Positions 1 to 39,678 of a stretch of DNA of 64,000 nucleotides are shown here, in pieces. The translations under genes were made by a program, and so were the position numbers. Positions within the stretch are counted from its first letter, which is position 1, and the number at the start of each line of letters is the position of its first letter. The stretch is from Dickeya poaceiphila (GTDB lineage Bacteria; Pseudomonadota; Gammaproteobacteria; Enterobacterales; Enterobacteriaceae): positions 3,286,001 to 3,350,000 of the forward strand of contig NZ_CP042220.2 of the NCBI RefSeq assembly GCF_007858975.2. The letters are read 5' to 3'. The notes under the pieces were generated by a model. It searched no databases. It was given only the letters and a program-made list of their open reading frames with translations, and was not told where the DNA came from.

Positions 1-705
1 GTTACAACAGGAAACCATCTGTATTCAGGTTAGCCAGCATCCCTTACCAGCCTTCCCGACGAAAAATCACACACGCCTGAGAGCGGACTGCAATGAAAAA
101 GAAAAAAATCAATTATAAAACAAACACATTAATACTTCCCCCTTCCACCAAACAAGGGAAATAAACAACGTGACATGGCCTGTAAGAAATTCTGCTTATG
201 TATGCACCGGTTTTTTTAGCGGGATAGTTCAATCAGTTGAGGGAAAAAAACACCATAGTATTTAACAATTTAGTAACTTTAATGCAAATTTGCTAAAAAT
301 AGGATTGCATAATTTTTTTTGCGACATTAAGTTAACTGAACTTAAGTTTGCTTAATTACTCTTTGATTTAGTATCACTGGCAACGTTAAATAAGAATGCA
401 CTCACCTTTGCAGGAATAACTATTTGCTAAAGCTCACGTCAGTCAGTTTTAAACTATGAATTTATTATTAAATCACCAGCAGTTACCTGGTGAAAAGCGC
501 CTTCATCATATCCAAATCTTATTATAGATTCTTGGTATATTTTGGAGCACGACTTATCTGCATCGAAGAAAAAACGTAACACTAACATTTTAACGGTCTC
601 TCTGATTACTTTGTTTTTATTAATTTCCAGCCGTTAATATTTCTCTGTTAAAGATGAAAATATGCCAACAGGATCTCAGTGGTTCACAATTTATTGGAGA
701 AGGAA
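1..705. other. AT-rich non-coding leader of the metabolite operon
   Basis: No convincing gene is seen in these 700 bases. The stretch from about 100 to 660 is clearly more AT-rich than the operon behind it, with many A and T runs. Such a leader is typical of horizontally acquired operons silenced by H-NS, but that is inference. The promoter of the 13-gene operon should lie here, since no other gap in the operon exceeds about 41 bp. I could not pick a convincing -35/-10 pair. Confidence 0.5.
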
Positions 706-1266
706 GTGAACATCAAAAGAAGCACCGTTATAAAATTCGATGAAAAGACATGTTATAACTTCAATGTCACGTCAGAAAGGGATGAAATTAACGCAAAAAG
801 ATTGCAAGATTTTATCGACAACACACTGAGACCATTTGACCGCAACACGCCTGAAGGCCATGTCACTGCGACAGCCTTTATTATTGATCCGTCGTGTCAT
901 CATGCGCTGATGTTACGCCACAAGAAACTGAACATGTGGTTACCGCCAGGGGGGCACTGTGATAATCAAGCGGATGCGTTGTTAACGGCAGTACGCGAGA
1001 CCTATGAGGAAACAGGTCTTTCGAATATTGAAATCATTAACAATGACATTTATGACATTGATATTCATATTATCCCCAAAAATACGCGTGAACCCCAACA
1101 TTACCATTATGACGTACGCTTCCTTTTCTTTGCTGATATAACGTCACCTTTGAAAATTAACGATGAAGAAGCATCACATGTTGAGTGGGTAAATCTCGAA
1201 CAGCTGGATAAATTTACTCAGCTTCCTTCTGTTTTAATTTTAAGAGATAAAATGGAGGTAATATGA
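706..1266 (+). CDS. NUDIX hydrolase, first gene of metabolite cluster
   Basis: A 186-residue NUDIX-fold pyrophosphohydrolase with the hallmark GGHCD turn followed by RETYEETGL, which carries the metal-binding EE pair. The first Glu of the classical box is Ala here. Such enzymes cleave nucleoside diphosphates linked to another moiety; the substrate cannot be read from sequence. I chose the GTG at 706 because GGAG ends six bases upstream; an in-frame GTG at 679 lacks a good ribosome-binding site. Its stop overlaps the next start by four bases (ATGA), so the two are probably translationally coupled. It opens the operon and may prepare or clear a nucleotide-linked intermediate. Confidence 0.8.
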   Translation: MNIKRSTVIKFDEKTCYNFNVTSERDEINAKRLQDFIDNTLRPFDRNTPEGHVTATAFIIDPSCHHALMLRHKKLNMWLPPGGHCDNQADALLTAVRETYEETGLSNIEIINNDIYDIDIHIIPKNTREPQHYHYDVRFLFFADITSPLKINDEEASHVEWVNLEQLDKFTQLPSVLILRDKMEVI

Positions 1267-2255
1267 AAATCGGCTTTGTTGGTTTTGGTGCACAGGCGCG
1301 AGAAAACCTGATACCTGCCTGCAATACTATTTATGGTGTGGAGATAGCCGCCATCTGTGATAGTGACCCGGCAAAGTGCCGTGAGGCAGCAAAATTATTC
1401 AATTTTGACGAATCAAGAGTATTCACTCATCACGGTGAGATGATGGATAAGTGTCGGCCTGATGCGGTGATTGTTTCCTGTTATCCTACCGAGCACTATA
1501 AAATTGCCTGTGATGCCATTGAACGCGGCATCCCGGTCTTGCTTGAAAAACCGGTAGCATCAAGCTACGAAGATGTTATTCGTCTGGCGGAAATGGCCAA
1601 GCGCCGAGGTGTTGTCACTGCATCTGGCATGAACTTCCGTTTTGCCGAAATTACTGAGCGTATCCAGAATATTTATGACGACAGCATTCAAATGATTAGT
1701 CTGCGTCAGATGGCCAATAAACCCGTATCGGCTTTATGGGACTATGATGATTTATTCAAATCATTTTTACATGCCCAAACCATCCACGGACTGGATCTGC
1801 TGATTCATCTGTGCGGCCCGGTAAAAAGATTATCTGTCGCGGACAACAGCACCGACAACAGTATTATATTTAGTGTATTACTGGAATTTGCGAATAATTG
1901 TCATGGTACGCTAATCACCAGCAATACCTCCCCTCACTTTACATTTGATCTTGATGTACTTGCCGATAATCGGCTGCATATAAAAAGCACCTCACTCAAC
2001 AGCCTGAGCGTAGCCGATTTAGGCAAGACCTATTTACAAGGTGAGACCAAGCGTTGGTGTGATACCTGGGCGGCGAGTCCACTTTCATCAGGTTATGCAC
2101 GCGCGGGATACACCGGAGAAATATTGGACTTCATTACAGCCATACAATCAGGTGAACGTGATTCACAAACCGCTTTTTCAACACTCATTGAAACGTATCG
2201 CTGTATGGATGCTATTGAAAAAAGTTGTAAGCAACCTGCGACCGTTAACATTTAA
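1263..2255 (+). CDS. Gfo/Idh/MocA-family NAD(P)-dependent oxidoreductase
   Basis: A 330-residue two-domain dehydrogenase. The N-terminal Rossmann motif GFVGFGAQ is at residues 4-11 and the conserved EKP signature at 95-97 follows the second half of the nucleotide fold. Family members oxidise a sugar or cyclitol hydroxyl to a ketone, usually with NAD. A DegT-type aminotransferase lies directly downstream, which is the classical pairing for making an amino sugar: oxidise, then transaminate. The ribosome-binding site GGAGG sits just before the ATG inside the preceding gene. The exact substrate is unknown. Confidence 0.88.
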   Translation: MKIGFVGFGAQARENLIPACNTIYGVEIAAICDSDPAKCREAAKLFNFDESRVFTHHGEMMDKCRPDAVIVSCYPTEHYKIACDAIERGIPVLLEKPVASSYEDVIRLAEMAKRRGVVTASGMNFRFAEITERIQNIYDDSIQMISLRQMANKPVSALWDYDDLFKSFLHAQTIHGLDLLIHLCGPVKRLSVADNSTDNSIIFSVLLEFANNCHGTLITSNTSPHFTFDLDVLADNRLHIKSTSLNSLSVADLGKTYLQGETKRWCDTWAASPLSSGYARAGYTGEILDFITAIQSGERDSQTAFSTLIETYRCMDAIEKSCKQPATVNI

Positions 2256-2296
2256 TCAGGTTTGCTTTTAATCAGGTTTATTTAAGGACGAGTACT

Positions 2297-3421
2297 ATGA
2301 TTAATAAATCCTACCAGAATCTGCACATCAATTTTGATCAAAGTGACTATGACGCGGTGGTTAATTCTTTTAATACCACCAGCTTTTCAGGAAAGTCTCC
2401 CATTATTGGCGAATATGAACAGGTCATTAGTGATTATTTCGGTACCCAAAAAGCGCTGGCCTGCAACAATGGTACGGTAGCGATTGAACTGGCTATCCGT
2501 GGCCTGGGGCTAGAGCCAGGTGATGCCATCGCCCTTCCGCCCACTGCTCCCATCATGACGATTTTACCGCTCATCACTACCGGATGTGTGCCGGTTTTTT
2601 GTGACGTCGGTCCGCTCACGTTCAGCCCGGATCTCAACCACCTGAAGCAGCTAGTACAACGGCATCCAATAAAAGCGCTGATTGTCGTACCGATGTGGGG
2701 TTACCCACTGCAAATGAAAGCCGTTGCCGATTTTTGTCAGGCGCAGGGGATTAAGCTCATCGAAGACTGTGCCCATGCTTTTGGTACCCGTTCAGACGGC
2801 GGTTACCTCGGTACGTTTGGCGATGTTTCCTGTTTTTCAACCCATGAGCGCAAGCTGGTCAGCACCGGTGAAGGCGGGTTCTGTCTTACCAACAATGAAA
2901 ATATTTACGAGCGGATGCTGAGCTGGCAACACCACGGGCTTAAAGCCTCCAGTCGCAGCAGCGGTTATATTTTGGGCGAAGACATCGGCACCAACGCAAA
3001 ATTGCCGCCTCTTTGCGCCGCGCTGGGCATCAATCAATTCAAAAAACTCGATCAGAAAATTGCTGACCGCCGGCTTCGTGCCAGCAAAGTCCGTCATGCA
3101 CTCTCAGAAATCCCCAGCATAAAAGAGTTCCCCCGCTATCAGGGCGAGGAAGTGAATGGCTATTCACTGGTTTATTACCACCTGAATGGTTCCAGCGTGG
3201 AGCAAGGCATTCAGATGCTAAATCAAGGCGTGATGTCTGACACCACACGCTACAAATACAAACCGCTTTATCAAGAGCCAGCGTTTAGGCAATACGCCGA
3301 ACCTTGCCCCAATGCGGAACAGATTATCGACACCATCTTCACTGTCCCCTGCCATGAAGGCTTGGATGACAGCGATATTGATTACATTGCCAGTGTCGTC
3401 AGCAGCAATTTTCTTCGCTGA
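2297..3421 (+). CDS. DegT/DnrJ/EryC1-family aminotransferase, copy 1 (active-site intact)
   Basis: A 374-residue PLP-dependent sugar-type aminotransferase. The PLP pyridine-binding Asp is D157 in IEDCAH, and the Schiff-base Lys is K186 in STHERKLVST just before the invariant TGEGG. Length and layout match the DegT family, whose members transaminate keto sugars using glutamate or glutamine. It follows the Gfo/Idh gene by 41 bp and precedes a second homologue by 8 bp. The three DegT homologues are recognisably related to one another (shared TGEGG region, and a shared PMWGYP stretch in copies 1 and 3), suggesting duplication within the cluster. Substrate unknown. Confidence 0.9.
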   Translation: MINKSYQNLHINFDQSDYDAVVNSFNTTSFSGKSPIIGEYEQVISDYFGTQKALACNNGTVAIELAIRGLGLEPGDAIALPPTAPIMTILPLITTGCVPVFCDVGPLTFSPDLNHLKQLVQRHPIKALIVVPMWGYPLQMKAVADFCQAQGIKLIEDCAHAFGTRSDGGYLGTFGDVSCFSTHERKLVSTGEGGFCLTNNENIYERMLSWQHHGLKASSRSSGYILGEDIGTNAKLPPLCAALGINQFKKLDQKIADRRLRASKVRHALSEIPSIKEFPRYQGEEVNGYSLVYYHLNGSSVEQGIQMLNQGVMSDTTRYKYKPLYQEPAFRQYAEPCPNAEQIIDTIFTVPCHEGLDDSDIDYIASVVSSNFLR

Positions 3422-3429
3422 GGCTGATT

Positions 3430-4425
3430 ATGTGCAACGCGACTTTAACCGACTCGTGCGCCACGTCGCAGCTTAAACGCGAACTCGATGCCGTCATGTC
3501 TGTTGCCGTAGGTGACATGGACAATGCACTCGCTGCCGTGTCCGCTTTTGAGGCAGCACTGGCTGAGTTTGCGTGCTTTTCACGCTGCGTAACGACATCG
3601 TCCGAAACGGGGACGGTGAGCGTGATGATCGGCGCACTTGATTTCCAGCCCGGTGACGAAGTCATCGTCAGCCCAGATGTCTCCGACTGGGTTATTTCAG
3701 CCTTGCTACATGCAGGAATAGCGCTGGCGCTGATTGATTATGCCCCCGACAGCTTGCGACTTAATCTTGCGACATTAAGAAAAAAAGTGAACAGCCGTAC
3801 CCGTGCAGTGCTGATTTCATCGCATTTTGACTGCCGACAGGATTTCTCTGCACTCCATGATTTATGCAGAGAACAACACCTGTTTTCGTTGCTTGAAATA
3901 ACTCCGCTACTGACGTTGAACCCGCAGCTACCTCAGCGCTGTGCCGGATTTGATATGGCTTTCCTGTCGCTTCGTGAAGGCAGCTCCGCAATGTCTACCG
4001 GCGAGGGCGGCGCAATATTTTATCGCCGCCAGGATTGGGGTACGCGAGCGAAAAGCTATTCACAGTTTTCCGATCTGGACGGCATTCATTTAGGTGTTAA
4101 TCATAAGCTTAGCGGCATCCAGTGCGCATTGGGCCAGGTGAGGCTTAACACTCTGGGTCTCCAGCGCCGCGCCGTGCAAGCGCAGATAGACCGGGCGAAG
4201 ACTGACTGTGAACGCGTTTCCGTTCCACAACTTCCTGATTTGCAAAACAACTCGTTCTCTATCGTGGTAATAGACAAAGAACGTGCCACCACGTGCGGCA
4301 TAAGCTGGCAGCCTCTTCCTATACTCAATCGTTTGCTTGAACCGTTGTTCTGGCAAGCGCCTGAGGCAGTAAAAATGCAGCAAAAATGGGCTGTTATGTC
4401 TCTTCAGGAGGAAGCCGCGCAATGA
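3430..4425 (+). CDS. DegT-family homologue lacking PLP-binding residues (copy 2, probable pseudoenzyme)
   Basis: A 331-residue protein with the DegT fold outline, including the TGEGG motif at 190-194. The residue four positions before TGEGG, Lys in copies 1 and 3, is Ser186 here. The residue matching the PLP Asp is Ile157 (LLEITPL against LIEDCAH). It is also about 40 residues shorter than its neighbours. The frame is open and tightly packed, and its TGA overlaps the next ATG, so it does not look like a decaying pseudogene. A non-catalytic partner of copy 1 or copy 3 in a heterodimer is my inference; DegT enzymes work as dimers with shared active sites. Confidence 0.85.
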   Translation: MCNATLTDSCATSQLKRELDAVMSVAVGDMDNALAAVSAFEAALAEFACFSRCVTTSSETGTVSVMIGALDFQPGDEVIVSPDVSDWVISALLHAGIALALIDYAPDSLRLNLATLRKKVNSRTRAVLISSHFDCRQDFSALHDLCREQHLFSLLEITPLLTLNPQLPQRCAGFDMAFLSLREGSSAMSTGEGGAIFYRRQDWGTRAKSYSQFSDLDGIHLGVNHKLSGIQCALGQVRLNTLGLQRRAVQAQIDRAKTDCERVSVPQLPDLQNNSFSIVVIDKERATTCGISWQPLPILNRLLEPLFWQAPEAVKMQQKWAVMSLQEEAAQ

Positions 4426-5531
4426 CGACCCTGGAGCACATTAAAGAAAGCTTTTATCCATCCGGCGCCGGAGAAGAAGCGCTGATGTTAGACGCACTGA
4501 AAAAAGGGATTCGCGGCGACTCAGAGGTGGTGAGTACCTATGAACAACAGTTGAAAAGACATTTTGGTGCATCAGAAGCTATCGCAACCTCTTCGGGATA
4601 TGGTTCTCTGGTGGTGGCGTTAAGTGCCATGGGGCTAAAACCCGGCGATAACGTTTTATTAACCCCGACCTGCCCGCTTTGTACCGTCTATGCCCTCACG
4701 TTTCTGCGGCTGGAACCCGTGTTTTGTGACATCAGCCCTGATGATTTTACCATCGACCTGGCGATGGCTGAGCAGCTTATCAATGACCGGACAAAAGCCA
4801 TTATCGATATCCCGATGTGGGGTTATCCGGTAGATGCGCAACGTGTCGGTGAATTCGCCCACAGCAAAGGACTTTTCTACCTGTTGGATATTGCGCTGGC
4901 GCATAAGGCCACATGGCGTGGTCAGTTACTGTGGAAATGGGCCGATATGGCAACGTTTTCAACACACCACAGTAAAACGCTGGTCACGGGCGAAGGCGGC
5001 GCGGTCCTGACTGACAACCGTGAACTGGCACACAGAGCCAGAGCCTTTACGCAGTGTCACTTCAACGAGGCGCAACCGGTTCTTAATTTTTCGCTCAGCG
5101 GATTGCAAGCCGCTCTCGGCATTGCCAGGCTACAGCGCCTGGAACAGGACGTACAGCACCGGCTGGACACCATGCAGACGATAAGTCAGCGGCTTCGCAA
5201 TCCTTTTCTGCACCCCTTGCCTGTTCTTGCTGGCGGTGAACCTGCCGGCACGCGCTTGCTGATTCGTTCCTTAACCGGGTGCAATAAAAGTCTACTCGCC
5301 TTTCAGATCCAGTCGGGCATTCCTTCTGACATCGCCCTTTATAACTGTAAAGCGCTGTATCAGTACCCGGTTTTACATGAACGGCACGCTTCTTGTCCGA
5401 ATGCAGAGCGAATGCTCTCTTCCATCACCACTATTCCCGTTCATCCGGAAATTGGAATGCCTGAGATTGATACCATCGTCAACGTTCTGAACCGTTTCCA
5501 GCCTTCAGATATCAAGGAGGAGCAGTTATGA
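4422..5531 (+). CDS. DegT/DnrJ/EryC1-family aminotransferase, copy 3 (active-site intact)
   Basis: A 369-residue DegT-type aminotransferase. The PLP Asp is D156 and the catalytic Lys is K185 in STHHSKTLVTGEGG. I use the ATG at 4422, which overlaps the upstream stop as ATGA and has AGGAGGA nine bases before it. A longer in-frame start at 4386 would lie inside the previous gene without a ribosome-binding site. Two catalytically complete aminotransferases in one operon suggest either two amination steps or one heteromeric enzyme involving copy 2. Its stop overlaps the FAD enzyme start by four bases. Confidence 0.88.
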   Translation: MTTLEHIKESFYPSGAGEEALMLDALKKGIRGDSEVVSTYEQQLKRHFGASEAIATSSGYGSLVVALSAMGLKPGDNVLLTPTCPLCTVYALTFLRLEPVFCDISPDDFTIDLAMAEQLINDRTKAIIDIPMWGYPVDAQRVGEFAHSKGLFYLLDIALAHKATWRGQLLWKWADMATFSTHHSKTLVTGEGGAVLTDNRELAHRARAFTQCHFNEAQPVLNFSLSGLQAALGIARLQRLEQDVQHRLDTMQTISQRLRNPFLHPLPVLAGGEPAGTRLLIRSLTGCNKSLLAFQIQSGIPSDIALYNCKALYQYPVLHERHASCPNAERMLSSITTIPVHPEIGMPEIDTIVNVLNRFQPSDIKEEQL

Positions 5532-6868
5532 CTCAACACACCTGTTCCGCTAATAAAGCGGTAGTGATTGGTGCCAGTATTGCTGGTTGCCTGACTGCAT
5601 CTGTACTTTCAAGACATTTCCAGCAGGTGATTCTGCTGGATTTTGATCGCTTTCATGAGAACCCTGAACCTCGCCAGACCGTGCCGCAGGAACATCACGT
5701 ACATTTGTTACTCCAGCGTGGCTTGCAGATTATGGAATCACTTTATCCGGGTCTTAAGTCGCAGCTACTTGAGGCCGGTGCTCAAGAGATAGATTTATCA
5801 CACGGCGTTAAAAGCTACGCCGGAGTTGGCTGGAAACAACGCTGGCCTACCGGAATTACCGCACACTACTGTTCAAGAACACTGCTGGAGCACGTAATCA
5901 GGCGCAGAGCTATTCAGCTTGCGAACGTCAGCGTTCTTGACGGCACCAGGGTGAAACAACTCATTCACGAGGACGGCAAGGTTAAAGGAGTGATTGTCAG
6001 TGAATCCGGCAACGATCAGCAGATACTCGCGGATCTGGTTGTGGATGCCTCCGGCAGAGGCTCTAAAGCATCTTCCTGGTTGAAACAGGCGGGATACGGT
6101 GAAGTAGAACGAGAAGAGGTCGCCAACCAGCTTGGTTATGTCTCCCGTGTCTACAAGCGCGATAACACCCGTCAAACCGGCTGGAAAGTGCTGCTGGTCA
6201 CACCGAATTTACCGAAAACCCGCACCATGGCGGTTATCAGTCCGGTTGAAGGCGACAGATATATTGTTACCGCCGGTGGCTGGTTTGGCGACAGCCCTAA
6301 ACCCAACGAAGCCGATTTTATGCGTTTTCTGGCGGAACTACCGGTAACGGATATTCATGATGAGGTGCAAAAACTAGAGCCGTTGGGTGATTTTCACCAA
6401 TTTAAAATGCCCTCCAGCCTTCGTCGTCGCTATGACTTACTACCAACATGGCCAGAAGGCTTTTTGGTAATCGGCGATGCGCTTTGCAGCATTAACCCCA
6501 TATACAGTCAAGGAATGAGCGTTTCCGCCCTTCAGATCGAAGCGTTAGCGCAACAAATTCCCGGCTACCTTAACGGAACACTGTCAGCCCGGCTGGTTTT
6601 TAAGAAGCTCGTGGCTGCAACCGCCGTATCCTGGGAACTGGCCAAGAAAAGTGATGAGAGCCTGCAACCCACGGAAGCTATCACTACCTTTAAGCACCGG
6701 CTGACGTCGCATTATCTCAATCTGGTTCAGGCCGCCTCTTTTCATCGGCGCGATGTTGCCATCACCATGCTTAAAATTATGAATCTACTAGAGAAACAAG
6801 AGTCGGTGTTTCGCCTGCCCATCGTTCTGGCATCACTCTCCAGCGCGATAGCGCGCACCATACGGTAA
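5528..6868 (+). CDS. FAD-dependent oxidoreductase/monooxygenase
   Basis: A 446-residue flavoprotein. The N-terminal dinucleotide-binding motif is GASIAG (GxSxxG type) at about residues 15-20. A VPQEHHVHLLLQRG segment follows, typical of epoxidase and geranylgeranyl-reductase-like flavoenzymes. The C-terminal half has the GD motif in FLVIGDALCSINP, contacting the FAD ribityl chain. The family includes monooxygenases, epoxidases and saturases of natural-product pathways. No halogenase-type WxWxIP motif was seen. It sits between the aminotransferases and a HAD enzyme, so it probably tailors the core molecule. The reaction is not predictable. Confidence 0.83.
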   Translation: MTQHTCSANKAVVIGASIAGCLTASVLSRHFQQVILLDFDRFHENPEPRQTVPQEHHVHLLLQRGLQIMESLYPGLKSQLLEAGAQEIDLSHGVKSYAGVGWKQRWPTGITAHYCSRTLLEHVIRRRAIQLANVSVLDGTRVKQLIHEDGKVKGVIVSESGNDQQILADLVVDASGRGSKASSWLKQAGYGEVEREEVANQLGYVSRVYKRDNTRQTGWKVLLVTPNLPKTRTMAVISPVEGDRYIVTAGGWFGDSPKPNEADFMRFLAELPVTDIHDEVQKLEPLGDFHQFKMPSSLRRRYDLLPTWPEGFLVIGDALCSINPIYSQGMSVSALQIEALAQQIPGYLNGTLSARLVFKKLVAATAVSWELAKKSDESLQPTEAITTFKHRLTSHYLNLVQAASFHRRDVAITMLKIMNLLEKQESVFRLPIVLASLSSAIARTIR

Positions 6869-6880
6869 GGAATTATCTCA

Positions 6881-7558
6881 ATGAATTATCGCAGCAAAAT
6901 CAATCACGTTATTTTCGACTGGAATGGCACTCTGGTAGACGATCTCGCTCTGGCGGTAAAAGGCGTGAATGCCGTAAGAGATTCGCAAATGCTACCGCCG
7001 CTCAATGCAGATCTGTATCGCCAGCACTTTGGCTTTCCTATCCGTTCTTTTTATCAGGCATTGGGCATTGATTGCGAGTCGGTACAGTTCGACGATCTGA
7101 TTAAAACTTATCTCAACATCTTCAACAATGAGATTGGTTTTTGTCCACTGCATCATGGCGCACTTAGCATGATGCAAGACTTGAAAGCCCGTAACATCAG
7201 CATTTCCGTACTCTCGGCAAGCCAGCATCAAACTTTGCAGCACAATCTTGATAATGCTGGCATTAGTCACTTAGTTGATCATGTCTATGGGCTAACAAAT
7301 ACTCAGGCCATGGGCAAGCAGGAGATTGCTCAGCAGCTCGATAGGGCTCTGGGTAAACCTGGCAACACCGCACTGATGATTGGTGATACCGATCATGACA
7401 TTGAGATTGCCAGACTGTGCGGCTGGCAGATGGCGTCGGTTTCTCATGGACATCAAACGGATGAACGCCTGCGCGCGATCCATGCTCAGGTATTTGATGA
7501 TTTGCCTGCGGTACACCGCGCCTGGTTTACCCCTCATCGGGAGGAACTGACATGTTAA
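6881..7558 (+). CDS. HAD-superfamily hydrolase with DWNGT motif I
   Basis: A 225-residue HAD protein of the phosphoglycolate-phosphatase-like type. Motif I is FDWNGTLVDD at 12-21, motif II is the Ser in SASQ, and motif IV is GDTDHD. The nucleophile position D13 is kept, but the usual second Asp (general acid/base) is Asn15. Some HAD subfamilies carry this change; it makes ordinary phosphatase activity less certain. An aminotransferase, Gfo/Idh and HAD combination resembles the NtdABC kanosamine logic of Bacillus (3-oxidation, transamination, dephosphorylation of glucose-6-phosphate); this is analogy, not proven orthology. Confidence 0.82.
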   Translation: MNYRSKINHVIFDWNGTLVDDLALAVKGVNAVRDSQMLPPLNADLYRQHFGFPIRSFYQALGIDCESVQFDDLIKTYLNIFNNEIGFCPLHHGALSMMQDLKARNISISVLSASQHQTLQHNLDNAGISHLVDHVYGLTNTQAMGKQEIAQQLDRALGKPGNTALMIGDTDHDIEIARLCGWQMASVSHGHQTDERLRAIHAQVFDDLPAVHRAWFTPHREELTC

Positions 7559-8685
7559 ATTCGGCCCATGTTTTTAACGTTATGCTGGCGATGATTCTGC
7601 TCAGCATCTGCATTCGCCTGCTTCTGAAATTCTATTACCGGGATGGCGAGCGCATATTGCCCAAGCTGAAACTGGCGCCGGCTGAGAAAGGACATATCAC
7701 CTATTACAAACGTTATGACACCATGCTGGCACCCTTACCTTTTATCTATTGCTGGCTGGAAATATTCGCGTCAGTGCTGTTTTTCCGCTGGTCAGATTAT
7801 CACCCTGTGGCCGGATTACTGCTTGCGATTATTACCGCTGGCCGACTGCGTGCATTACAAGAGATTGGACATAATGCACTGCATGTTGCGCTGTGTCGTT
7901 CTAAAAAGTTTCAATGGTTTTTGTCGAACGTCTTTTTCCAGTTTCCTGCCTTAAAAAGGGACATGGATTCACGCTTTAATACCCATGTGCGTGATCACCA
8001 TCCTAATGCGGATATTCCAGGGAAAGACCCTAATCTGCGGCGCGTCAGTGCCGCAGGAATGGTTCCCGGTATTACCCGTTCCCAGTTCATTTGGGCACTG
8101 CTTTATCCTGTGCGCCCAAAGGGGATAATTAACAATATCCGTGGAAATATACATGACACGCTTTACGAGAATTCGACGGTAAATATTGCATTGCTTCGGG
8201 CAGTCGCAACGCTGAGTATTGTGGGCGTTTACTGGTTTCTTGGCGGTGTTGCCGCCGTAATAGTGGGCTGGCTGGTGCCGATTTTCACGGTTTACCCGCT
8301 GTTTGCATGGTGGTCATTGCTGTCAAAGCATCGCTGGCATACGACCTATGATCCTAAAAGAGATCGATTAGCGCACGATTATGAACACGGGCGCGCTACC
8401 GATTTTTCAGGTCTGCTCGGCAGCATTCAGCGTTATCTGATATATCCCATATCCGACGCCTACCATCTGGCACACCATATTTATCCCAATGTCCGTTATC
8501 AATATCTGCCTGCCGTGGACTGGGCGCTTAAAGTGAATGAACCCCGATATACACAATATATTTCCACAGGGATGATTTTGGGTTCGCAACACCAACCGGC
8601 TGCGCTCTCCGAACTTTATCATCGCCTTGTCAAACCGAATCACCATGCCGTTAGCGAAATGGACACAGGAGTCTCTCATGAATAA
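7552..8685 (+). CDS. Membrane fatty-acid-desaturase-family di-iron enzyme
   Basis: A 377-residue membrane protein with the three His clusters of the desaturase/hydroxylase family: H107-xxx-H111, H145-xxx-H149-H150 and H305-xx-H308-H309. Hydrophobic segments lie near residues 5-28, 60-98 and 210-255. Such enzymes use oxygen and a di-iron centre to desaturate or hydroxylate an acyl chain or a small hydrophobic substrate. The start overlaps the upstream stop by seven bases. Its presence suggests that the product carries a lipid-like part or that an unactivated C-H bond is oxidised. No electron-donor gene is present, so housekeeping ferredoxin or flavodoxin must serve. Confidence 0.87.
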   Translation: MLNSAHVFNVMLAMILLSICIRLLLKFYYRDGERILPKLKLAPAEKGHITYYKRYDTMLAPLPFIYCWLEIFASVLFFRWSDYHPVAGLLLAIITAGRLRALQEIGHNALHVALCRSKKFQWFLSNVFFQFPALKRDMDSRFNTHVRDHHPNADIPGKDPNLRRVSAAGMVPGITRSQFIWALLYPVRPKGIINNIRGNIHDTLYENSTVNIALLRAVATLSIVGVYWFLGGVAAVIVGWLVPIFTVYPLFAWWSLLSKHRWHTTYDPKRDRLAHDYEHGRATDFSGLLGSIQRYLIYPISDAYHLAHHIYPNVRYQYLPAVDWALKVNEPRYTQYISTGMILGSQHQPAALSELYHRLVKPNHHAVSEMDTGVSHE

Positions 8686-9562
8686 AACGCCCCGCATTGG
8701 CATTATCTGTGGCAGTGGTATGGACAAGCTGTCGATTATTGCATCTCCTGAGCGCGTGGAAATCACTACCGCTTTCGGTGACCCTTCCGGACATATCACC
8801 TTGGGTGAAATTGCCGGTGTGCCTGTCGCCATCGTTAATCGTCACGGCATTGGACATACTCGTCTACCGTCAGAAATTAACGTCAGAGCCAATGTCGCCG
8901 CGCTTAAAATGCTGGGGGTTACTCAGGTTCTCTCTTTCAGCGCAGTAGGCAGCCTGACTCAAGCCGCACCGCCTGGCACCTTTGTGGCCATTGATCAGTT
9001 TATTGATCGCACATACCGCCGCGTGAATACCTTTTTTGGCTCCGGCGTGGTTGCCCACGTGCCATTCGGCGAGCCGGTGTGCGGCAATAACCATACCCAC
9101 ATCGTTAACGCCCTGGAAGCGCAATCCATCCCTCATTTGTCTGAAGGTCTGTATGTCGTGATGGAAGGACCACACTTTTCAACCCGCGCCGAATCTCTTT
9201 TTCACCAGCAAATCGGCGGTACGGTCATCGGCATGACGGCGATGCCAGAACCCAAACTCTGTCGAGAAGCTGAGCTATGCTACAACATGATAGCCATGGT
9301 GACAGATTACGACTGCTGGCACAGCACCCATGACGATGTGAATGCCGCCATGGTAAGCCAGCAGATGAAAGAAAATATCCAGATGGCCGAGGCGCTATTG
9401 ACCCACATCATTCCGTCTCTTGCACAGCACGATTCACCCTGCCCGAAAGGATGCCAACATGCGCTGGATGGCGCCATTATGACCAGCCCCAACCTGATGA
9501 CCGCGGACACCATTCAACGCTATTCCCCATTACTGGACCGCGTGTTGAAGCCAGGTCAATGA
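8678..9562 (+). CDS. S-methyl-5'-thioadenosine phosphorylase-like purine nucleoside phosphorylase
   Basis: A 294-residue member of the PNP/MTAP family. Motifs visible are the N-terminal GIICGSGMD, EGPHFSTRAE, and the base-recognition loop TDYDCWH, whose Asp residues fix adenine specificity in MTA phosphorylases. MTAP converts MTA and phosphate to adenine and 5-methylthioribose-1-phosphate. I use the ATG at 8678, which has AGGAG about six bases before it and overlaps the desaturase stop by eight bases; an earlier in-frame start lies deep inside the desaturase gene. Methionine salvage genes elsewhere in this window could consume the product. A related nucleoside substrate in the pathway is the alternative. 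Confidence 0.88.
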   Translation: MNKTPRIGIICGSGMDKLSIIASPERVEITTAFGDPSGHITLGEIAGVPVAIVNRHGIGHTRLPSEINVRANVAALKMLGVTQVLSFSAVGSLTQAAPPGTFVAIDQFIDRTYRRVNTFFGSGVVAHVPFGEPVCGNNHTHIVNALEAQSIPHLSEGLYVVMEGPHFSTRAESLFHQQIGGTVIGMTAMPEPKLCREAELCYNMIAMVTDYDCWHSTHDDVNAAMVSQQMKENIQMAEALLTHIIPSLAQHDSPCPKGCQHALDGAIMTSPNLMTADTIQRYSPLLDRVLKPGQ

Positions 9563-9593
9563 TATCAGCCCATCAGGAAAAGGATAAACGTAC

Positions 9594-10259
9594 ATGAAAA
9601 CGAACGCGGGATTGCTGTTTGATTTGGATGGAACACTACTGGATACCGACAGCCTGCATCTGAATGCATTCAATATGTTACTGGCCGATTTTGGCAAATC
9701 CGTCACCATTGACTATTACAATCAGAAAATCATGGGCGCCCCCATGGAGACTATCACTCGCGATCTTTTTCCGCAGATGCCGTCGCAGGAACGTCATGAA
9801 CTGGGGGAACGTAAGGAAGCCTTGTTTCGTGAACAACTTACCGGACCGCTTGAAGGCCGCCCTGGCGTCACGGCGTTTTTCGAGAAAGCCAAACGCTATG
9901 GCGTCGGTATCTGCATCGTGACCAATGCGCCACGCGAAAGTGCAGAAATGATGTTACGTGGTTTACACCTGCTAGACGCCGTTGATCACCTGCTGATTGG
10001 CGCGGAGTTGCCCCACAGCAAGCCAAACCCTTACCCCTATCAGGAAGCGATGCGCCGATTGGGGATCACGCCGGATAAAGCGCTGGCGTTTGAAGATTCA
10101 GGTCCCGGCGTACAATCGGCCTCCGCCGCAGGTATCTTCACTTTTGGTTTGAAAGGTGCGCTCGACGAAAATGCGCTGCTGAAGTATGGCGCCTCAGCAG
10201 CGATTGCAGATTTCACTGATCCGCTGCTGGCCAGCCGCTTTAGCAACATTGTAGGTTGA
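9594..10259 (+). CDS. HAD-superfamily hydrolase, beta-phosphoglucomutase-like subfamily
   Basis: A 221-residue HAD protein with a helical cap. Motif I is DLDGTLLDTD, motif II is VTNAP, motif III is SKPNP with the conserved Lys, and motif IV is AFEDS. All catalytic residues are present, unlike the first HAD of the cluster. The subfamily includes sugar-phosphate phosphatases and phosphoglucomutases. Downstream of a phosphorylase releasing a pentose-1-phosphate, a phosphatase or mutase role is reasonable, but the substrate is unknown. It sits 31 bp after the phosphorylase and 13 bp before the next gene. Confidence 0.85.
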   Translation: MKTNAGLLFDLDGTLLDTDSLHLNAFNMLLADFGKSVTIDYYNQKIMGAPMETITRDLFPQMPSQERHELGERKEALFREQLTGPLEGRPGVTAFFEKAKRYGVGICIVTNAPRESAEMMLRGLHLLDAVDHLLIGAELPHSKPNPYPYQEAMRRLGITPDKALAFEDSGPGVQSASAAGIFTFGLKGALDENALLKYGASAAIADFTDPLLASRFSNIVG

Positions 10260-10272
10260 GGTAAACAACATC

Positions 10273-11178
10273 ATGACATCGATTGTGATTTCAGCACCAA
10301 CCGGTGATGGTTCAAGGGCACGTGTAAAAGCCTATAGCTCATTCGAGCCGTACGAGTTGGAAGAGTACCTGCGGCAACTTGCCGTGCATCTTCCCGATGT
10401 TGCCATTGAGATTGAACGCATGTCTACGGCTGCACTGAGAAACCGACTGGAGGCCGAAAAGGACAACCCTCAGGTCGATATGATTCTGGGTTGGGCCGAT
10501 ACCGCCGCCAAGACCGTTGCGCTCAGCGATAAGCTATTTTCACCTCAGGGTGATGCGGATGGATACCTTCGTATCACCGGATTCTCCACAGCCATTGTGG
10601 TCGATCCTGACCTTCTCAAACAGTTAAACGTCAATATCGAAACCTGGCGGGATTTGGCTCATCCAGCCCTGCGCGGTCGGATAGCCTTTCCCAATCCAGC
10701 ACAGTCAGGCGCCGGATTTTTAGCGCTCACTACGCTGCTACAAGCTTACGGTGAAAGCGACGGCTGGCCCTTGTTATCAGATATTTACCGCAATGTGCAG
10801 GTTCGGCCTGACTCAGCGTGGGAACCCGCCCGCCTGACGGGAGAAGGCGAGATTGCAGCAGGTGTTACGGTTAAAATCGCCGCATTTAATCGCAAACGCG
10901 AATTGCCCCGTCTGAAGATTATCGAACCGCCGAGAGCGACGGGAACAGAATCGGAAGTGTATGCCGGCTTCATCACCTCTGCGCACCGGGAGGCGGTTTC
11001 AGAGATACTGGAATGGCTCCAGACTGAAGCAGCGAACAGAATTTACACCTCGTTTAATAAGCTTATCCTTACAAAAAACGATGACAGCTATCTCACCATT
11101 GACGCCGGTCAGGCGGTATTACATCGCACTCGCTGGCTCACTCAACTTGAATCTCTCACAAATGGAATGTCACTATGA
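10273..11178 (+). CDS. ABC solute-binding-protein-fold protein without signal peptide
   Basis: A 301-residue protein resembling family-1 extracellular binding proteins (iron(III), 2-aminoethylphosphonate or thiamine type), e.g. WRDLAHPALRGRIAFPNPA and the following GxGFLA region. The N-terminus begins MTSIVISAPTGDG with no hydrophobic leader or lipobox, so it should stay in the cytoplasm. No permease or ATPase gene accompanies it. It is therefore either an intracellular ligand carrier or sensor, or an enzyme built on a binding-protein fold. The 4-bp overlap with the next gene (ATGA) places it firmly in the operon. Confidence 0.72.
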   Translation: MTSIVISAPTGDGSRARVKAYSSFEPYELEEYLRQLAVHLPDVAIEIERMSTAALRNRLEAEKDNPQVDMILGWADTAAKTVALSDKLFSPQGDADGYLRITGFSTAIVVDPDLLKQLNVNIETWRDLAHPALRGRIAFPNPAQSGAGFLALTTLLQAYGESDGWPLLSDIYRNVQVRPDSAWEPARLTGEGEIAAGVTVKIAAFNRKRELPRLKIIEPPRATGTESEVYAGFITSAHREAVSEILEWLQTEAANRIYTSFNKLILTKNDDSYLTIDAGQAVLHRTRWLTQLESLTNGMSL

Positions 11179-11780
11179 AGCACGCTTTGTATACCCCTGT
11201 AGCCACCACCGCCACCATTAATCAGCAACAGATACTGGCTAATGACTGGGGAACGTTAACCAAATACGACATGACTTACGTCAGATCAGACGGTTCAGAG
11301 CAGCGTTTTACACGCGAAGCGTATGACCGTGGACATGGCGCGACCATTCTGCTGTATAACCGTGATGATAAAACCATCATCCTCACCAGCCAATTCCGTA
11401 TGCCTGCCTTTCTAATTGGCCACCACTATGAGTTGATTGAAGCCTGCGCCGGGCTGTTGGACGAGCGCGATCCTGTTCTGGCGATAAAAACCGAGGCTGA
11501 AGAAGAGACGGGCTACAAGCTCAGCGAAGTCACTAAAATTGGCGAAATTTTTATGAGCCCAGGTTCGGTTACAGAGCGCCTGCACTTTTTCATTGCGCCC
11601 TTCACCCGTGACATGCGTGTCAACGACGGCGGCGGAATAGCTGCGGAAGGCGAAGATATTAAAGTGCTTGAGGTTCCTATTAAAGAGGCGCTTGAGATGA
11701 TTGATGCAGGAACCATTATTGATGCCAAAACCATTATCCTGATTCAGCATTTAGTGATTAAAGGCATCTGTACACCATAA
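11175..11780 (+). CDS. NudK-like NUDIX pyrophosphatase
   Basis: A 201-residue protein that closely follows E. coli NudK in layout: a YDRGHGATILLYN strand, LIEACAGLLD, then the NUDIX helix EAEEETGY and the FMSPGSVTERLHFFIA loop. NudK hydrolyses GDP-mannose and related nucleotide sugars to the sugar-1-phosphate and NMP. In the helix, Thr replaces the usual Arg; NudK has Lys there. Whether it acts on GDP-mannose or on an intermediate of this pathway is unknown. It starts inside the upstream gene and lies 28 bp before the exporter. Confidence 0.85.
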   Translation: MKHALYTPVATTATINQQQILANDWGTLTKYDMTYVRSDGSEQRFTREAYDRGHGATILLYNRDDKTIILTSQFRMPAFLIGHHYELIEACAGLLDERDPVLAIKTEAEEETGYKLSEVTKIGEIFMSPGSVTERLHFFIAPFTRDMRVNDGGGIAAEGEDIKVLEVPIKEALEMIDAGTIIDAKTIILIQHLVIKGICTP

Positions 11781-11808
11781 TTCATTACGCTCTGAAAGGA
11801 ATTCATGT

Positions 11809-12996
11809 ATGGCTGAACAGAGTCTGGAAAAGTCGCGCTTTAAGCGCGACCACTACACGCTTTACCTGTATATCATGTCTGTTGTTTGCGGTATTCATCA
11901 GGCTATTTTAGGGTCTATTACACCTTTTCTGCGTGATGAACTCACTATGTCTAAAGTCATCATTGGCTGGCATTTCAGTCTTTATGCAATAGGCATGTTT
12001 GTTTCAGGTTTTATTATTACGCATGTCGCCTCAAAAGCATCGCCTAAAAAGATCCTTCTGAGCAGTTCCTGGGCAGTGGCGGTTACTGTCGCGGTATTTG
12101 CCTTACCGCTAGGTATTGCCGGCAACCTGATTCTGTCGCTCGTGCTTGGCCTGTCTGGCGGAGCAATGCAGATTGCCATTCAGGAAGCGTTGGCCCGGCA
12201 TCACACGGAAAACAGCGGCATAGCGATTACCGAAGGGTGCATTTTTTCCGCGATTGGCGTATTTATTGGCCCGTTAGTGATTGGTTATTCCGTAGAGTCT
12301 GGTGCAGGCTGGCGTATCGCCATGTTTCTGCCGCTCATTGCCTTACTGCCCTTGCTGTGCGTCATTCCCCAAAATATTCCAACGACGCCACCACGAGCCA
12401 CTATCACCCCCCATACTTCTGGCGCCAACATTACGCGTTTGCCACTTGTCGCTTACCTGATGTTCGGGATGATTTTTCTTGGCATCGCTGCTGAATGGGG
12501 AATCGGCTTTTGGGGCGCACAATTTCTGGAAGAACAGCTTTCACTCTCGGCAGCAAACAGTGTGGCGATGATGGCGGTTTTCTTTGGCGGTACGATTGCC
12601 GGGCGAATTGTGGTAAGCCGCTTGCTGGTTCGTTATAACATTCAGGCCATTCTTTTATGGACGATTATTCTCAGTGGTATGAGTATGCTATTGCTTTGGC
12701 TGGTGCCGGATATTACCGCTGCGGTTATTGGTCTTACTGTGGCTGGCGCCTGTCTTGGCAATTTTTTCCCGCTGATTCTCTCTATCGCAACATGGCAGCC
12801 GCCAGAATTACTCTCGAAAATTTCTGCTGGCGCGACCCAGTCAGTGGGGCTGGCCCTGCTTTTAGCACCGTTATTCCTCGGTAAGCTTGGGGAAGATATT
12901 GGTCTGATACCCGCGATGGGCGCATTGATTGTTATTCCTCCCGTCATGCTGATTGTCGATGTAATCTCTCGGAGATTGTCGAAACACCAGGGGTAG
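11809..12996 (+). CDS. MFS transporter, probable exporter of the cluster product
   Basis: A 395-residue major facilitator protein with about twelve hydrophobic segments and a short hydrophilic centre near residues 190-210. It begins with a charged stretch and enters the membrane near residue 20. As the last gene of the operon it probably exports the finished product and may confer self-resistance, a common arrangement in biosynthetic clusters; import of a precursor is the alternative. The gene ends 10 bp before the thrW-derived repeat at 13007. No clear terminator hairpin was seen after it. Confidence 0.85.
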   Translation: MAEQSLEKSRFKRDHYTLYLYIMSVVCGIHQAILGSITPFLRDELTMSKVIIGWHFSLYAIGMFVSGFIITHVASKASPKKILLSSSWAVAVTVAVFALPLGIAGNLILSLVLGLSGGAMQIAIQEALARHHTENSGIAITEGCIFSAIGVFIGPLVIGYSVESGAGWRIAMFLPLIALLPLLCVIPQNIPTTPPRATITPHTSGANITRLPLVAYLMFGMIFLGIAAEWGIGFWGAQFLEEQLSLSAANSVAMMAVFFGGTIAGRIVVSRLLVRYNIQAILLWTIILSGMSMLLLWLVPDITAAVIGLTVAGACLGNFFPLILSIATWQPPELLSKISAGATQSVGLALLLAPLFLGKLGEDIGLIPAMGALIVIPPVMLIVDVISRRLSKHQG

Positions 12997-13006
12997 GGAA
13001 AAGATT

Positions 13007-13045
13007 CGATAATAGGAGTCGAACCTACGACCTTCGCATTACGAA
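13007..13045 (-). repeat. Left attachment repeat: 39-bp fragment of thrW tRNA
   Basis: These 39 bases are identical to 39609-39647, the 3' half of the intact tRNA-Thr gene (anticodon region, T arm and most of the acceptor 3' strand). The match breaks exactly at both ends. Together the copies bound a 26.6-kb element and are the expected att core of a P4-type integrase. Confidence 0.93.
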
Positions 13046-13210: not shown

Positions 13211-14530
13211 ATGGCAATCATCATCACTCAGGATCGACAGTTGGCATCCCTTTCAGTCACTGAAGAAGAGAAAGAAAATGTTGTCTCAGTCAAATCAAAA
13301 GCAGGCGGAGGACTCTACGTCCGCATACGCTATGGCAGCGAGAGTAAAAGCTGGATTTATCGTTACAGGATTGCACAAAAGCAAATCAAACTGACATTGG
13401 GTAGCTACCCTGCTATGAGCCTGGCTCAGGCTCGTCAGGCCCATGCCGACGCAGCTGAATTGGTGAAGAAGGGCATTGATCCTCGTTACGTCAAAAAAAA
13501 TGAGAAACAGCAAAACGAGCAAATGCCAATATTCGCTGACTTGTGGCAAAACTGGTTGGCATTCAGAACTGAGAGTAAACCCATCAGTGCCCGCACCATT
13601 ACTGACTATGAAGGCACCTATCGCCGCCATCTTGAAAAGGCGTTGGGTAATATGCGCGTTAACGATCTTTCACGCTCTGTGATTTTCGAGCATCTCAGCC
13701 GCGTGAGAAAGGAAAGCGCAGAAGGGGTTCGCAAAGGATTAATCATCCTGAATCTGACCCTTGATCATGCCACGTTACAAGGGCTGATTGAACATAACCC
13801 TGCTCGTCTGCTCAAACCTGCCATGTTTGGTGCATCAATGGGTAAACCTCGTGAACGTTGGTTGCCACAAGACGAACTCCACATGCTTTGGAAAGCACTC
13901 GATGAAGCCTCTGTTGGTGGTGGCTCCATTGCAGCAGGTGGCAGAGGAATAGCATCCAGCGTGGTAATGTCATTATCCGTTGCGAATGCACTTCGCTTGA
14001 TCATATTCACGGGTGTTCGTCGCTCAGAAGCAGCAGAAATGCGCTGGGATCAAATCAACGGTGATCGCTGGACTATTCCAGCTACAAAAAATGGCAAAAG
14101 CCATATTGTCACACTACATCCCCGCGCCCTATCCCTTATTCAAGAACAGCGCGTGATCGCGGAAGGGGCATATGTTTTCGGTTCCACCAGCAAGCCAGGA
14201 TTTCCTATAACCGGTGATGCCCTTACTCGTGCTCTGGAGCGTGTAAGATCTAAATATCTTGCGGAACTTGCGCCCTTCTCTCCTCATGACTTACGTCGTA
14301 GCGTGGCCACGGGTTGTGCGGAATATCTGGATGCACCAGAACGCTTGATAGAGCTTCTGCTGAACCACGTACCTAAAGATCGATTAATTCGGACTTATCA
14401 AGTTGGGCAACAAGCGGACAAACTGAAAAAGCTATTTCTACGCTGGGGGGATTTTATTCAACAAGAAATCATTACCTCCTCGGTATCGAGGCCAGATAAT
14501 GTCGTTAAAGTTCAGTTTGGTGGTAAATAA
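13211..14530 (+). CDS. P4-type tyrosine site-specific integrase
   Basis: A 439-residue tyrosine recombinase with an N-terminal arm-binding DUF4102-like region (about residues 1-100, including LTLGSYPAMSLAQAR), a core-binding domain, and a C-terminal catalytic domain. Catalytic residues visible are the Arg in FTGVRRSEA, H-x-x-R in SPHDLRRS and the nucleophilic Tyr in RTYQ. It would insert and excise the element at thrW, the same target as the CP4-6 prophage of E. coli. It lies 166 bp from the tRNA-distal att copy and is transcribed into the element. AAGGA precedes the ATG. Confidence 0.95.
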   Translation: MAIIITQDRQLASLSVTEEEKENVVSVKSKAGGGLYVRIRYGSESKSWIYRYRIAQKQIKLTLGSYPAMSLAQARQAHADAAELVKKGIDPRYVKKNEKQQNEQMPIFADLWQNWLAFRTESKPISARTITDYEGTYRRHLEKALGNMRVNDLSRSVIFEHLSRVRKESAEGVRKGLIILNLTLDHATLQGLIEHNPARLLKPAMFGASMGKPRERWLPQDELHMLWKALDEASVGGGSIAAGGRGIASSVVMSLSVANALRLIIFTGVRRSEAAEMRWDQINGDRWTIPATKNGKSHIVTLHPRALSLIQEQRVIAEGAYVFGSTSKPGFPITGDALTRALERVRSKYLAELAPFSPHDLRRSVATGCAEYLDAPERLIELLLNHVPKDRLIRTYQVGQQADKLKKLFLRWGDFIQQEIITSSVSRPDNVVKVQFGGK

Positions 14531-39602: not shown

Positions 39603-39678
39603 TGGTGCCGATAATAGGAGTCGAACCTACGACCTTCGCATTACGAATGCGCTGCTCTACCAACTGAGCTATATCGGC
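39603..39678 (-). tRNA. thrW: tRNA-Thr (anticodon CGU)
   Basis: A complete 76-base cloverleaf with encoded CCA. Acceptor GCCGATA pairs with TATCGGC, the D arm is AGCTCAGTTGGTAGAGC, the anticodon loop TTCGTAA gives CGU, and the T arm contains GGTTCGACTCC. Its position after proA matches thrW of E. coli. Its 3' half, facing the island, is the integration site. Confidence 0.97.
39609..39647 (-). repeat. Right attachment repeat inside thrW
   Basis: Identical over 39 bases to 13007-13045. The intact tRNA lies at this end, so this copy keeps thrW functional. Confidence 0.93.

Follow-up and report, generated by a model that had tools for sequence, protein, structure and literature searches.

The 64,000-nucleotide stretch of Dickeya poaceiphila DNA analysed here (assembly GCF_007858975.2, contig NZ_CP042220.2, positions 3,286,001 to 3,350,000; hereafter the window) carries, at positions 706-12996, thirteen plus-strand genes (g1 to g13; Table 1) that are confirmed as a real, co-inherited and horizontally moved biosynthetic operon of patchy occurrence. 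We propose, with a probability of roughly 45%, that the product of this operon is a small amino compound, built most probably along an aminonucleoside-type route and then exported. Gene content, gene order, conservation, the status of catalytic residues and the patchy distribution were observed directly, and it is from these that we infer every substrate and chemical step of the route.

Operon structure, copies and distribution

Successive gaps between the thirteen genes measure -4, 41, 8, -4, -4, 12, -7, -8, 31, 13, -4 and 28 bp, i.e. they range from -8 to 41 bp and include four overlaps of 4 bp, which confirms the tight packing (gaps up to about 41 bp, with 4-bp overlaps) described in an initial annotation of the window made from its sequence alone. 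Pfam and NCBIfam likewise agree with the families named there for all thirteen proteins. A Shine-Dalgarno sequence (ggagaagg) precedes the GTG at 706, a better start for g1 than the mechanically assigned one at 679. The G+C content of the operon is 49.7%, compared with 54.8% for the core region within the window. All thirteen genes are under purifying selection, with ratios of nonsynonymous to synonymous substitution rates (dN/dS) of 0.02-0.22; these were estimated from the pair G017 and LSJC7. Against Pantoea ananatis, dS is saturated in 12 of the 13 genes.

The full set is present in identical order in four other genomes (Table 1). Of the six gene overlaps, the P. ananatis copy retains every one at unchanged length, and the L030, L031 and L034 copies retain some. 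Farther afield, four megaplasmid records of the betaproteobacterial genus Mycetohabitans match g6, g8 and g11. The two that were opened (L044 and L052) read Gfo/Idh-DegT-NUDIX-DegT-FAD-HAD-desaturase-mtnP-nudK-solute-binding protein-MFS-HAD, meaning that 12 of the 13 genes have counterparts, reordered, and that g4 is absent; the L044 proteins are 28-53% identical to those of the window. The initial annotation had named synteny in relatives, as opposed to scattered genes, as the comparison to make, and in the copies found the genes lie together: 13 of 13 in four genomes and 12 of 13 in Mycetohabitans. Rearranged between enterobacteria and a betaproteobacterium, the genes have nevertheless stayed together, which argues strongly for a single pathway. 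Hosts of the 12- or 13-gene set include an onion isolate of P. ananatis, Pectobacterium, the fungal endosymbiont genus Mycetohabitans and other enterobacteria, and the set is found on a plasmid, on megaplasmids and on chromosomal contigs.

A smaller unit, the Gfo/Idh-DegT-NUDIX trio only, occurs in Rhizobium sp. BT04, whose NUDIX protein is 43% identical to g1. There, the plasmid-borne trio (L045:6805-9489) faces away from neighbouring genes for HAD, MFS, glycosyltransferase and nucleotidyltransferase proteins, and the locus is possibly a separate amino-nucleoside or amino-sugar cluster.

Occurrence is patchy, at fractions that are to be read as rough: the samples overlap, and the sample of 394 genomes of the order evidently included neither G017 nor G163. 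With a g8 profile, copies were found in one of nine genomes of the window's genus and in 1 of 369 genomes of the class sample. Across the order sample, the same profile gave two matches at 1e-15, of which the only true copy is that of the window's own genome (G000); the other, in G160, was rejected as a desaturase of 25% identity from a different context. Searching 295 genomes of the family for g11 at 1e-10 gave 67 matches, three of them at least 60% identical, and a g1 profile matched 7 of 246 genomes, with three true copies. Searches of genome contigs led to three loci with g8 and to no relatives with g11. In E. coli, none of 20,395 records contains a near match, in a search that covers near matches only. 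Megablast against plasmids returned nothing, although tblastn detects the P. ananatis copy; the empty result reflects copies too diverged at the DNA level. Loci of Pseudomonas FeN3W, S. clavuligerus, Microvirga, Streptomyces T12, NBC_01527, S. longwoodensis, Kitasatospora and Shinella were inspected and set aside.

A profile built from seven relatives of g2, two of them from Mycetohabitans, scored 447.8 bits against the Protein Data Bank (PDB) entry 3m2t, a 'probable dehydrogenase' that we take to come from Chromobacterium violaceum, and 85.8 bits against the next chain. So large a lead suggests that another organism may carry the cluster.

Table 1. Features of the window and copies of the operon in other genomes (aa, amino acids; FAD, flavin adenine dinucleotide; PLP, pyridoxal phosphate; MTA, 5'-methylthioadenosine)
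Feature	Location	Strand	Details
AT-rich region upstream, presumed promoter region	1..678	+	no closed open reading frame of at least 80 aa starting here
g1, NUDIX hydrolase, start most likely GTG 706	679..1266	+	PF00293 52.8 bits; RExxEETG intact
g2, Gfo/Idh/MocA oxidoreductase, proposed 3-(3'-)dehydrogenase	1263..2255	+	PF01408 79 bits
g3, DegT aminotransferase, catalytic Lys present (STHERK)	2297..3421	+	PF01041 237 bits
g4, DegT homologue without PLP lysine, C-terminally short	3430..4425	+	PF01041 77.5 bits
g5, DegT aminotransferase, catalytic Lys present (STHHSK)	4422..5531	+	PF01041 199 bits
g6, FAD monooxygenase, Lsd18/LasC/MonCI epoxidase type	5528..6868	+	phmmer to PDB 8up4, 2.1e-62
g7, HAD hydrolase, motif I DWNGT	6881..7558	+	PF13419 75 bits
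g8, membrane di-iron oxygenase, FA_desaturase superfamily	7552..8685	+	PF00487 73 bits
g9, MTA-phosphorylase-like purine nucleoside phosphorylase	8678..9562	+	PF01048 125 bits
g10, HAD sugar-phosphatase/beta-phosphoglucomutase-like, canonical DLDGT	9594..10259	+	TIGR02009 112 bits, below cut-off 153
g11, periplasmic-binding-protein fold, no signal peptide	10273..11178	+	SBP_bac_11 50 bits
g12, NudK-like NUDIX pyrophosphatase	11175..11780	+	NudK 187 bits, below cut-off 234; TIGR00052 136, over cut-off 79.55
g13, MFS transporter, presumed exporter	11809..12996	+	PF07690 74 bits
39-bp direct repeat of part of tRNA-Thr gene	13007..13045	+	second copy 39609-39647, in intact tRNA-Thr 39603-39678
Integrase	13211-14530		in the island bounded by the repeat; Pfam
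P. ananatis PNA 97-1R copy (L029)	plasmid NZ_CP020945.2		all 13, same order; 47-85% aa identity, tblastn
L030 and L031 copies	two genomes of one enterobacterial genus		all 13, same order; L031 (= L035) is Enterobacteriaceae bacterium LSJC7
Pectobacterium aroidearum L6 copy (L034)			all 13, same order; g4 and g5 as one frame
Metagenome-assembled genome bran_bin.7 contig (L036)			g3-g7 and start of g8; contig stops there

Catalytic residues of the encoded proteins

Where the initial annotation counted three DegT homologues, two are enzymes with the PLP lysine, which is present in all six copies of g3 and all six of g5, and the middle one, g4, lacks it in six of six. In Pectobacterium aroidearum, g4 and g5 are fused into a single 654-aa frame (L034:6006-7970). 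The g4 protein evolves fast, at 47-52% identity to that of the window, yet is constrained (dN/dS 0.11). The missing lysine, the fusion and the purifying selection lead us to read g4 as probably a non-catalytic partner of g5, although Mycetohabitans manages without a g4 counterpart. The pair would thereby offer a natural case of an aminotransferase retained beside a catalytically dead partner.

Against the Lsd18/LasC-type structure 8up4, g6 scores 215 bits over residues 3-395 of 446, with MonCI at 190 bits (about 1e-54); g6 is of this epoxidase type, and alkene epoxidation is predicted. The His boxes of g8 (HNA[LV]H, HxxxHH and HLAH[HS]) are kept in six of six aligned copies. Its best named model is GntB, an amino-acid (L-arginine) hydroxylase, at 93.4 bits under a cut-off of 380, compared with 19 bits, below cut-off, for the only fatty-acid desaturase model listed; a search of PDB sequences gave one chance-level match only (E 0.25). 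The initial annotation had envisaged an aminated, oxidised and possibly lipid-bearing product. Amination and oxidation fit the families, whereas the lipid part finds no backing in the g8 scores or in any acyl-transfer gene, and a lipid or capsule sugar was rejected given the absence of acyl- and glycosyltransferase genes among the 13.

In g9, the motif TD[YF]DCW is present in six of six aligned copies and contains TDxD, which we take to be the adenine-site motif of MTAP. The protein falls just short of the MTAP model TIGR01694 (273.2 bits, cut-off 274.85) and is below the cut-off of PRK08931 (338.6 against 437). A Ser aligns to a Leu of human MTAP that presumably forms part of the 5'-methylthio pocket; archaeal MTAPs likewise differ at this position.

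The binding-protein fold reported earlier for g11 stands, with the additions that a signal peptide is absent and that a phosphate-binding signature is kept. As judged by eye, the hydrophobic leader is missing from six of six aligned copies, and the mature domain starts directly. Solved relatives include AfuA, which binds hexose and heptose phosphates (PMC4546632), and P5PA, which binds pyridoxal phosphate and contacts its phosphate through Thr37, Ser147, Gly148, Thr149 and Ser183 (PMC8427247). According to HMMER alignments read by hand, four of these five residues have g11 counterparts—Thr52, Ser145, Gly146 and Ser181, invariant in six of six copies—and Thr149 corresponds to Ala147. The AfuA ring residues His205 and Asp206 are lost, being replaced by Ile202 (Thr in Mycetohabitans) and Ala203, and Glu229 is retained as Glu226. 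We propose that g11 may act in the cytosol, either binding an intermediate that carries phosphate or converting it as an enzyme. For g11 and g8, AlphaFold models made from four-row alignments reached mean pLDDT (predicted local distance difference test) values of 44 and 38, respectively, and were not used.

A binding-protein fold next to HADs, a Gfo/Idh oxidoreductase and a transporter might also be expected of an operon that takes up or degrades an aminated sugar phosphate. We consider such a function highly improbable, as no ABC permease, ATPase or other ABC gene is present among the 13, as g11 lacks a signal peptide, as there would be little use there for two oxygenases and a catalytically dead DegT protein, and as a set of 12 families is kept across classes. 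The biosynthetic assignment, i.e. a metabolite operon with an MFS exporter, had been made from the outset, and both the families and their co-inheritance support it. Judged by Pfam and NCBIfam families, the 13 genes include no polyketide synthase (PKS), nonribosomal peptide synthetase (NRPS), glycosyltransferase, nucleoside diphosphate (NDP)-sugar dehydratase or nucleotidyltransferase gene, and cluster detection based on core enzymes may miss such an operon.

A putative aminonucleoside-type route and its alternatives

In the favoured aminonucleoside-type route, g2 would oxidise the 3'-hydroxyl of a purine nucleoside triphosphate, the NUDIX enzyme g1 would trim the oxidised triphosphate to a monophosphate, and g3 would transaminate the 3'-ketone, as proposed for the Pur10/Pur7/Pur4 and AdgB/D/C sets. 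Once a HAD (g10, or else g7) had taken off the phosphate, the MTAP-like g9 would phosphorolyse the adenine nucleoside to an amino-ribose 1-phosphate or, running in reverse, join adenine to a sugar 1-phosphate. Further on, g8 and g6 might hydroxylate or desaturate and epoxidise or oxidise the skeleton, and g5, with the non-catalytic g4, might add a second amine, while g11 would bind, in the cytosol, an intermediate that carries phosphate. The role of g12 could be to clear a nucleotide or nucleotide-sugar by-product or, alternatively, to protect the producer, and g13 would export the product. An aminonucleotide start is favoured because a sugar phosphate derived from a nucleotide would suit both the adenine-type phosphorylase and the phosphate-binding protein. 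In addition, the Gfo/Idh-DegT-NUDIX order of Mycetohabitans and Rhizobium sp. BT04 equals the order of adgB-adgC-adgD, and g3 joins the DegT protein of the Rhizobium trio in a tree with support of 98/95.

Several observations weigh against this route. The trio is permuted in the window, to NUDIX-Gfo-DegT. The Rhizobium branch has a length of 1.65, which makes its join with g3 unsure, and the Mycetohabitans DegT in the trio position falls outside the g3 group, at 40% identity to g5 and 37% to g3. The Pur3 family is the inositol monophosphatase family, of which no gene was found among the 13, two HADs being present instead. One of these, g7, has the motif I DWNGT in 5/5 enterobacterial copies inspected and in Mycetohabitans too; Asn here replaces the usual acid/base Asp, so that a phosphatase role may fail. 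By profile, the top chain for g11 is 8x1a, named an iron-binding protein, ahead of AfuA and P5PA. A 25-mer of adgB matched none of 392 genomes, and the likeness to the Pur and Adg proteins is known at the family level. Finally, the MTAP-like enzyme might only be recycling MTA, and both the best-scoring models for g2 and g3 and a galE gene beside the P. ananatis copy point to NDP-sugars.

These last observations bear on a kanosamine- or perosamine-like alternative, in which g2 would oxidise C3 of a UDP- or GDP-hexose, g3 and g5/g4 would aminate, g12 and g1 would split the pyrophosphate, the HADs would dephosphorylate, g6 and g8 would oxidise and g13 would export an amino-sugar, with g9 recycling or adding adenine. 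The best NCBIfam models are UDP-GlcNAc 3-dehydrogenase for g2 (61.9 bits), the NDP-sugar aminotransferases PseC/LegC for g3 and NudK, a GDP-mannose pyrophosphatase, for g12; the nearest PDB structure to g3 is perosamine synthetase; and in P. ananatis a galE-like gene (L029:17728-18747) lies 10 bp downstream of the MFS gene. Yet the scores with the equivalog models are far under the respective cut-offs (450 in the case of g2), and galE directly follows just one of the four other complete enterobacterial copies (L031 judged from the positions of its open reading frames). A dehydratase, a nucleotidyltransferase and a glycosyltransferase are all absent among the 13, and the adenine-type phosphorylase, kept in six of six aligned copies, would be left unexplained. 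We therefore rate an NDP-amino-sugar route as possible and as the less probable of the two.

The MTAP likeness of g9 could also be explained if an operon enzyme took S-adenosylmethionine (SAM) as a C4 amino donor, with g9 salvaging the MTA released and the DegT proteins and oxygenases tailoring an amino-acid-like product by GntB-like hydroxylation. That g9 is barely under the MTAP cut-off and that g8 is nearest to the L-arginine hydroxylase model would agree with this idea. It appears improbable all the same: the 13 genes encode no ATP-grasp protein, no amino-acid ligase and no member of a known SAM-using family, and open reading frames resembling the methionine salvage genes mtnK, mtnA, mtnD, mtnC and mtnB (named by eye) are already present at 53-58 kb of the window.

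Returning to the aminonucleoside-type route, an extended version would turn the purine into a disposable handle. Adenosine would be aminated at C3' by the puromycin-type module and cut by the dedicated phosphorylase, and the resulting 3-amino-3-deoxyribose phosphate would pass to the di-iron oxygenase, the polyether-type epoxidase, the second aminotransferase with its dead paralogue and a cytosolic phosphate shuttle. The outcome, a base-free amino-sugar derivative of a new Gram-negative natural-product class, is an unlikely one.

Genomic neighbourhood

To the right of the operon, the tRNA-Thr repeat begins right after g13, which places the operon just outside an integrase island (13007-39647). 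By Pfam, this island encodes the integrase, a DarT/DarG toxin-antitoxin pair and a DUF4942 protein, and by eye RadC-like, GTPase-like, AAA and transposase-like open reading frames can be added. In a sister species (G1119, L069), the same tRNA-Thr site beside proA has a different integrase gene, which marks the site as an integration hot spot.

To the left of the window lie a divergent LysR gene, a polyketide cluster (G000:C1:3261349-3285443, i.e. L057:15349-20000 and L056:1-19443) and open reading frames like those of an integrative and conjugative element (ICE) backbone, resembling parA, dnaB, parB and topB on reading of their sequences. The cluster includes proteins over NCBIfam cut-offs for AmcE, AmcF and AmcH (cispentacin) and for a crotonyl-CoA carboxylase/reductase, together with PKS proteins of 2701 and 2126 aa, the latter with a thioesterase. 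Its layout recalls the coronafacic acid clusters that are reportedly found on Pectobacterium ICEs. Two relatives, each represented by one stretch of 20 kb, were compared with the 80 kb left of the window, and no junction marking the left island end was detected.

The last oxidoreductase gene of the polyketide cluster ends about 2.6 kb before g1, with the LysR gene in between, and the operon might on this ground supply a partner for the coronafacate/cispentacin-like product. We regard such a coupling as very unlikely, given that no PKS or NRPS gene flanks the L029, L030 and L034 copies in the stretches read (3-6 kb before and 1-13 kb after) and that L031 has no open reading frame of PKS/NRPS size in the 6.5 kb before and 1.1 kb after. 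Mycetohabitans L044 does carry a large NRPS/PKS gene, but about 7 kb before the cluster and with unrelated genes intervening.

Relation to published clusters and known systems

The P. ananatis copy appears to have been listed in print already, without a function. In strains PNA 07-10, 07-1 and 05-1, a cluster of virB, uspA, galE, ybjJ, nudK, a carbohydrate phosphatase gene, mtnP, gph, two arnB genes, perA and iolG has been described that is absent from PNA 15-3 and PANS 99-14 (PMC9933511, section 16). From galE onwards, these names correspond to galE, g13, g12, g10, g9, g7, two DegT genes, g3 and g2, a match by names and order, not by sequence. In the same section, 58 of 60 shared genes, the alt cluster included, are reported as linked to foliar disease of A. 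fistulosum x A. cepa, an association that plasmid linkage could explain. PNP-1 (PMC4010436), cluster 675 of P. agglomerans B025670 (PMC7744662) and the Photorhabdus 4'-thiothymidine cluster (PMC12691670) were set aside, since each has other gene content in the passages compared.

Our literature search found no paper assigning a function to the operon and none naming at least four of six operon families together. If the product were a nucleoside- or sugar-type antimetabolite, it would represent an orphan compound family with possible roles in competition or plant interaction.

Among known systems, the kanosamine/3-amino-5-hydroxybenzoic acid and perosamine-type pathways (rifL/rifK/rifM, ntdABC) combine Gfo/Idh, DegT and HAD proteins as the operon does, but their core sets are not known to include a NUDIX protein, an MTAP, an epoxidase or a di-iron enzyme, and their substrates are hexose derivatives. 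The actinobacterial puromycin, A201A and cystocin clusters share a Gfo/Idh, DegT, NUDIX and phosphatase set tied to 3'-amino-3'-deoxynucleosides (PMC11641026). The ATP 3'-dehydrogenase, aminotransferase, NUDIX protein and phosphatase of these modules are comparable to operon proteins, whereas their genes for aminoacyl or peptidyl nucleoside assembly are absent from the operon. The adgA-E operon of Photorhabdus luminescens is likewise enterobacterial and combines an MFS protein with the Gfo/Idh, DegT and NUDIX module; its adgB-adgC-adgD genes are homologues of pur10-pur4-pur7, and expression of adgB-E in E. coli yields 3'-amino-3'-deoxyguanosine (PMC9239236). Unlike the operon, it comprises five genes, with a pur3-type phosphatase and, as far as the passages on it go, without an epoxidase, a di-iron enzyme, an MTAP, a binding protein, HADs, a NudK or a second DegT protein. 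We regard the operon as a variation on amino-sugar/aminonucleoside chemistry and not as a system of an entirely new category.

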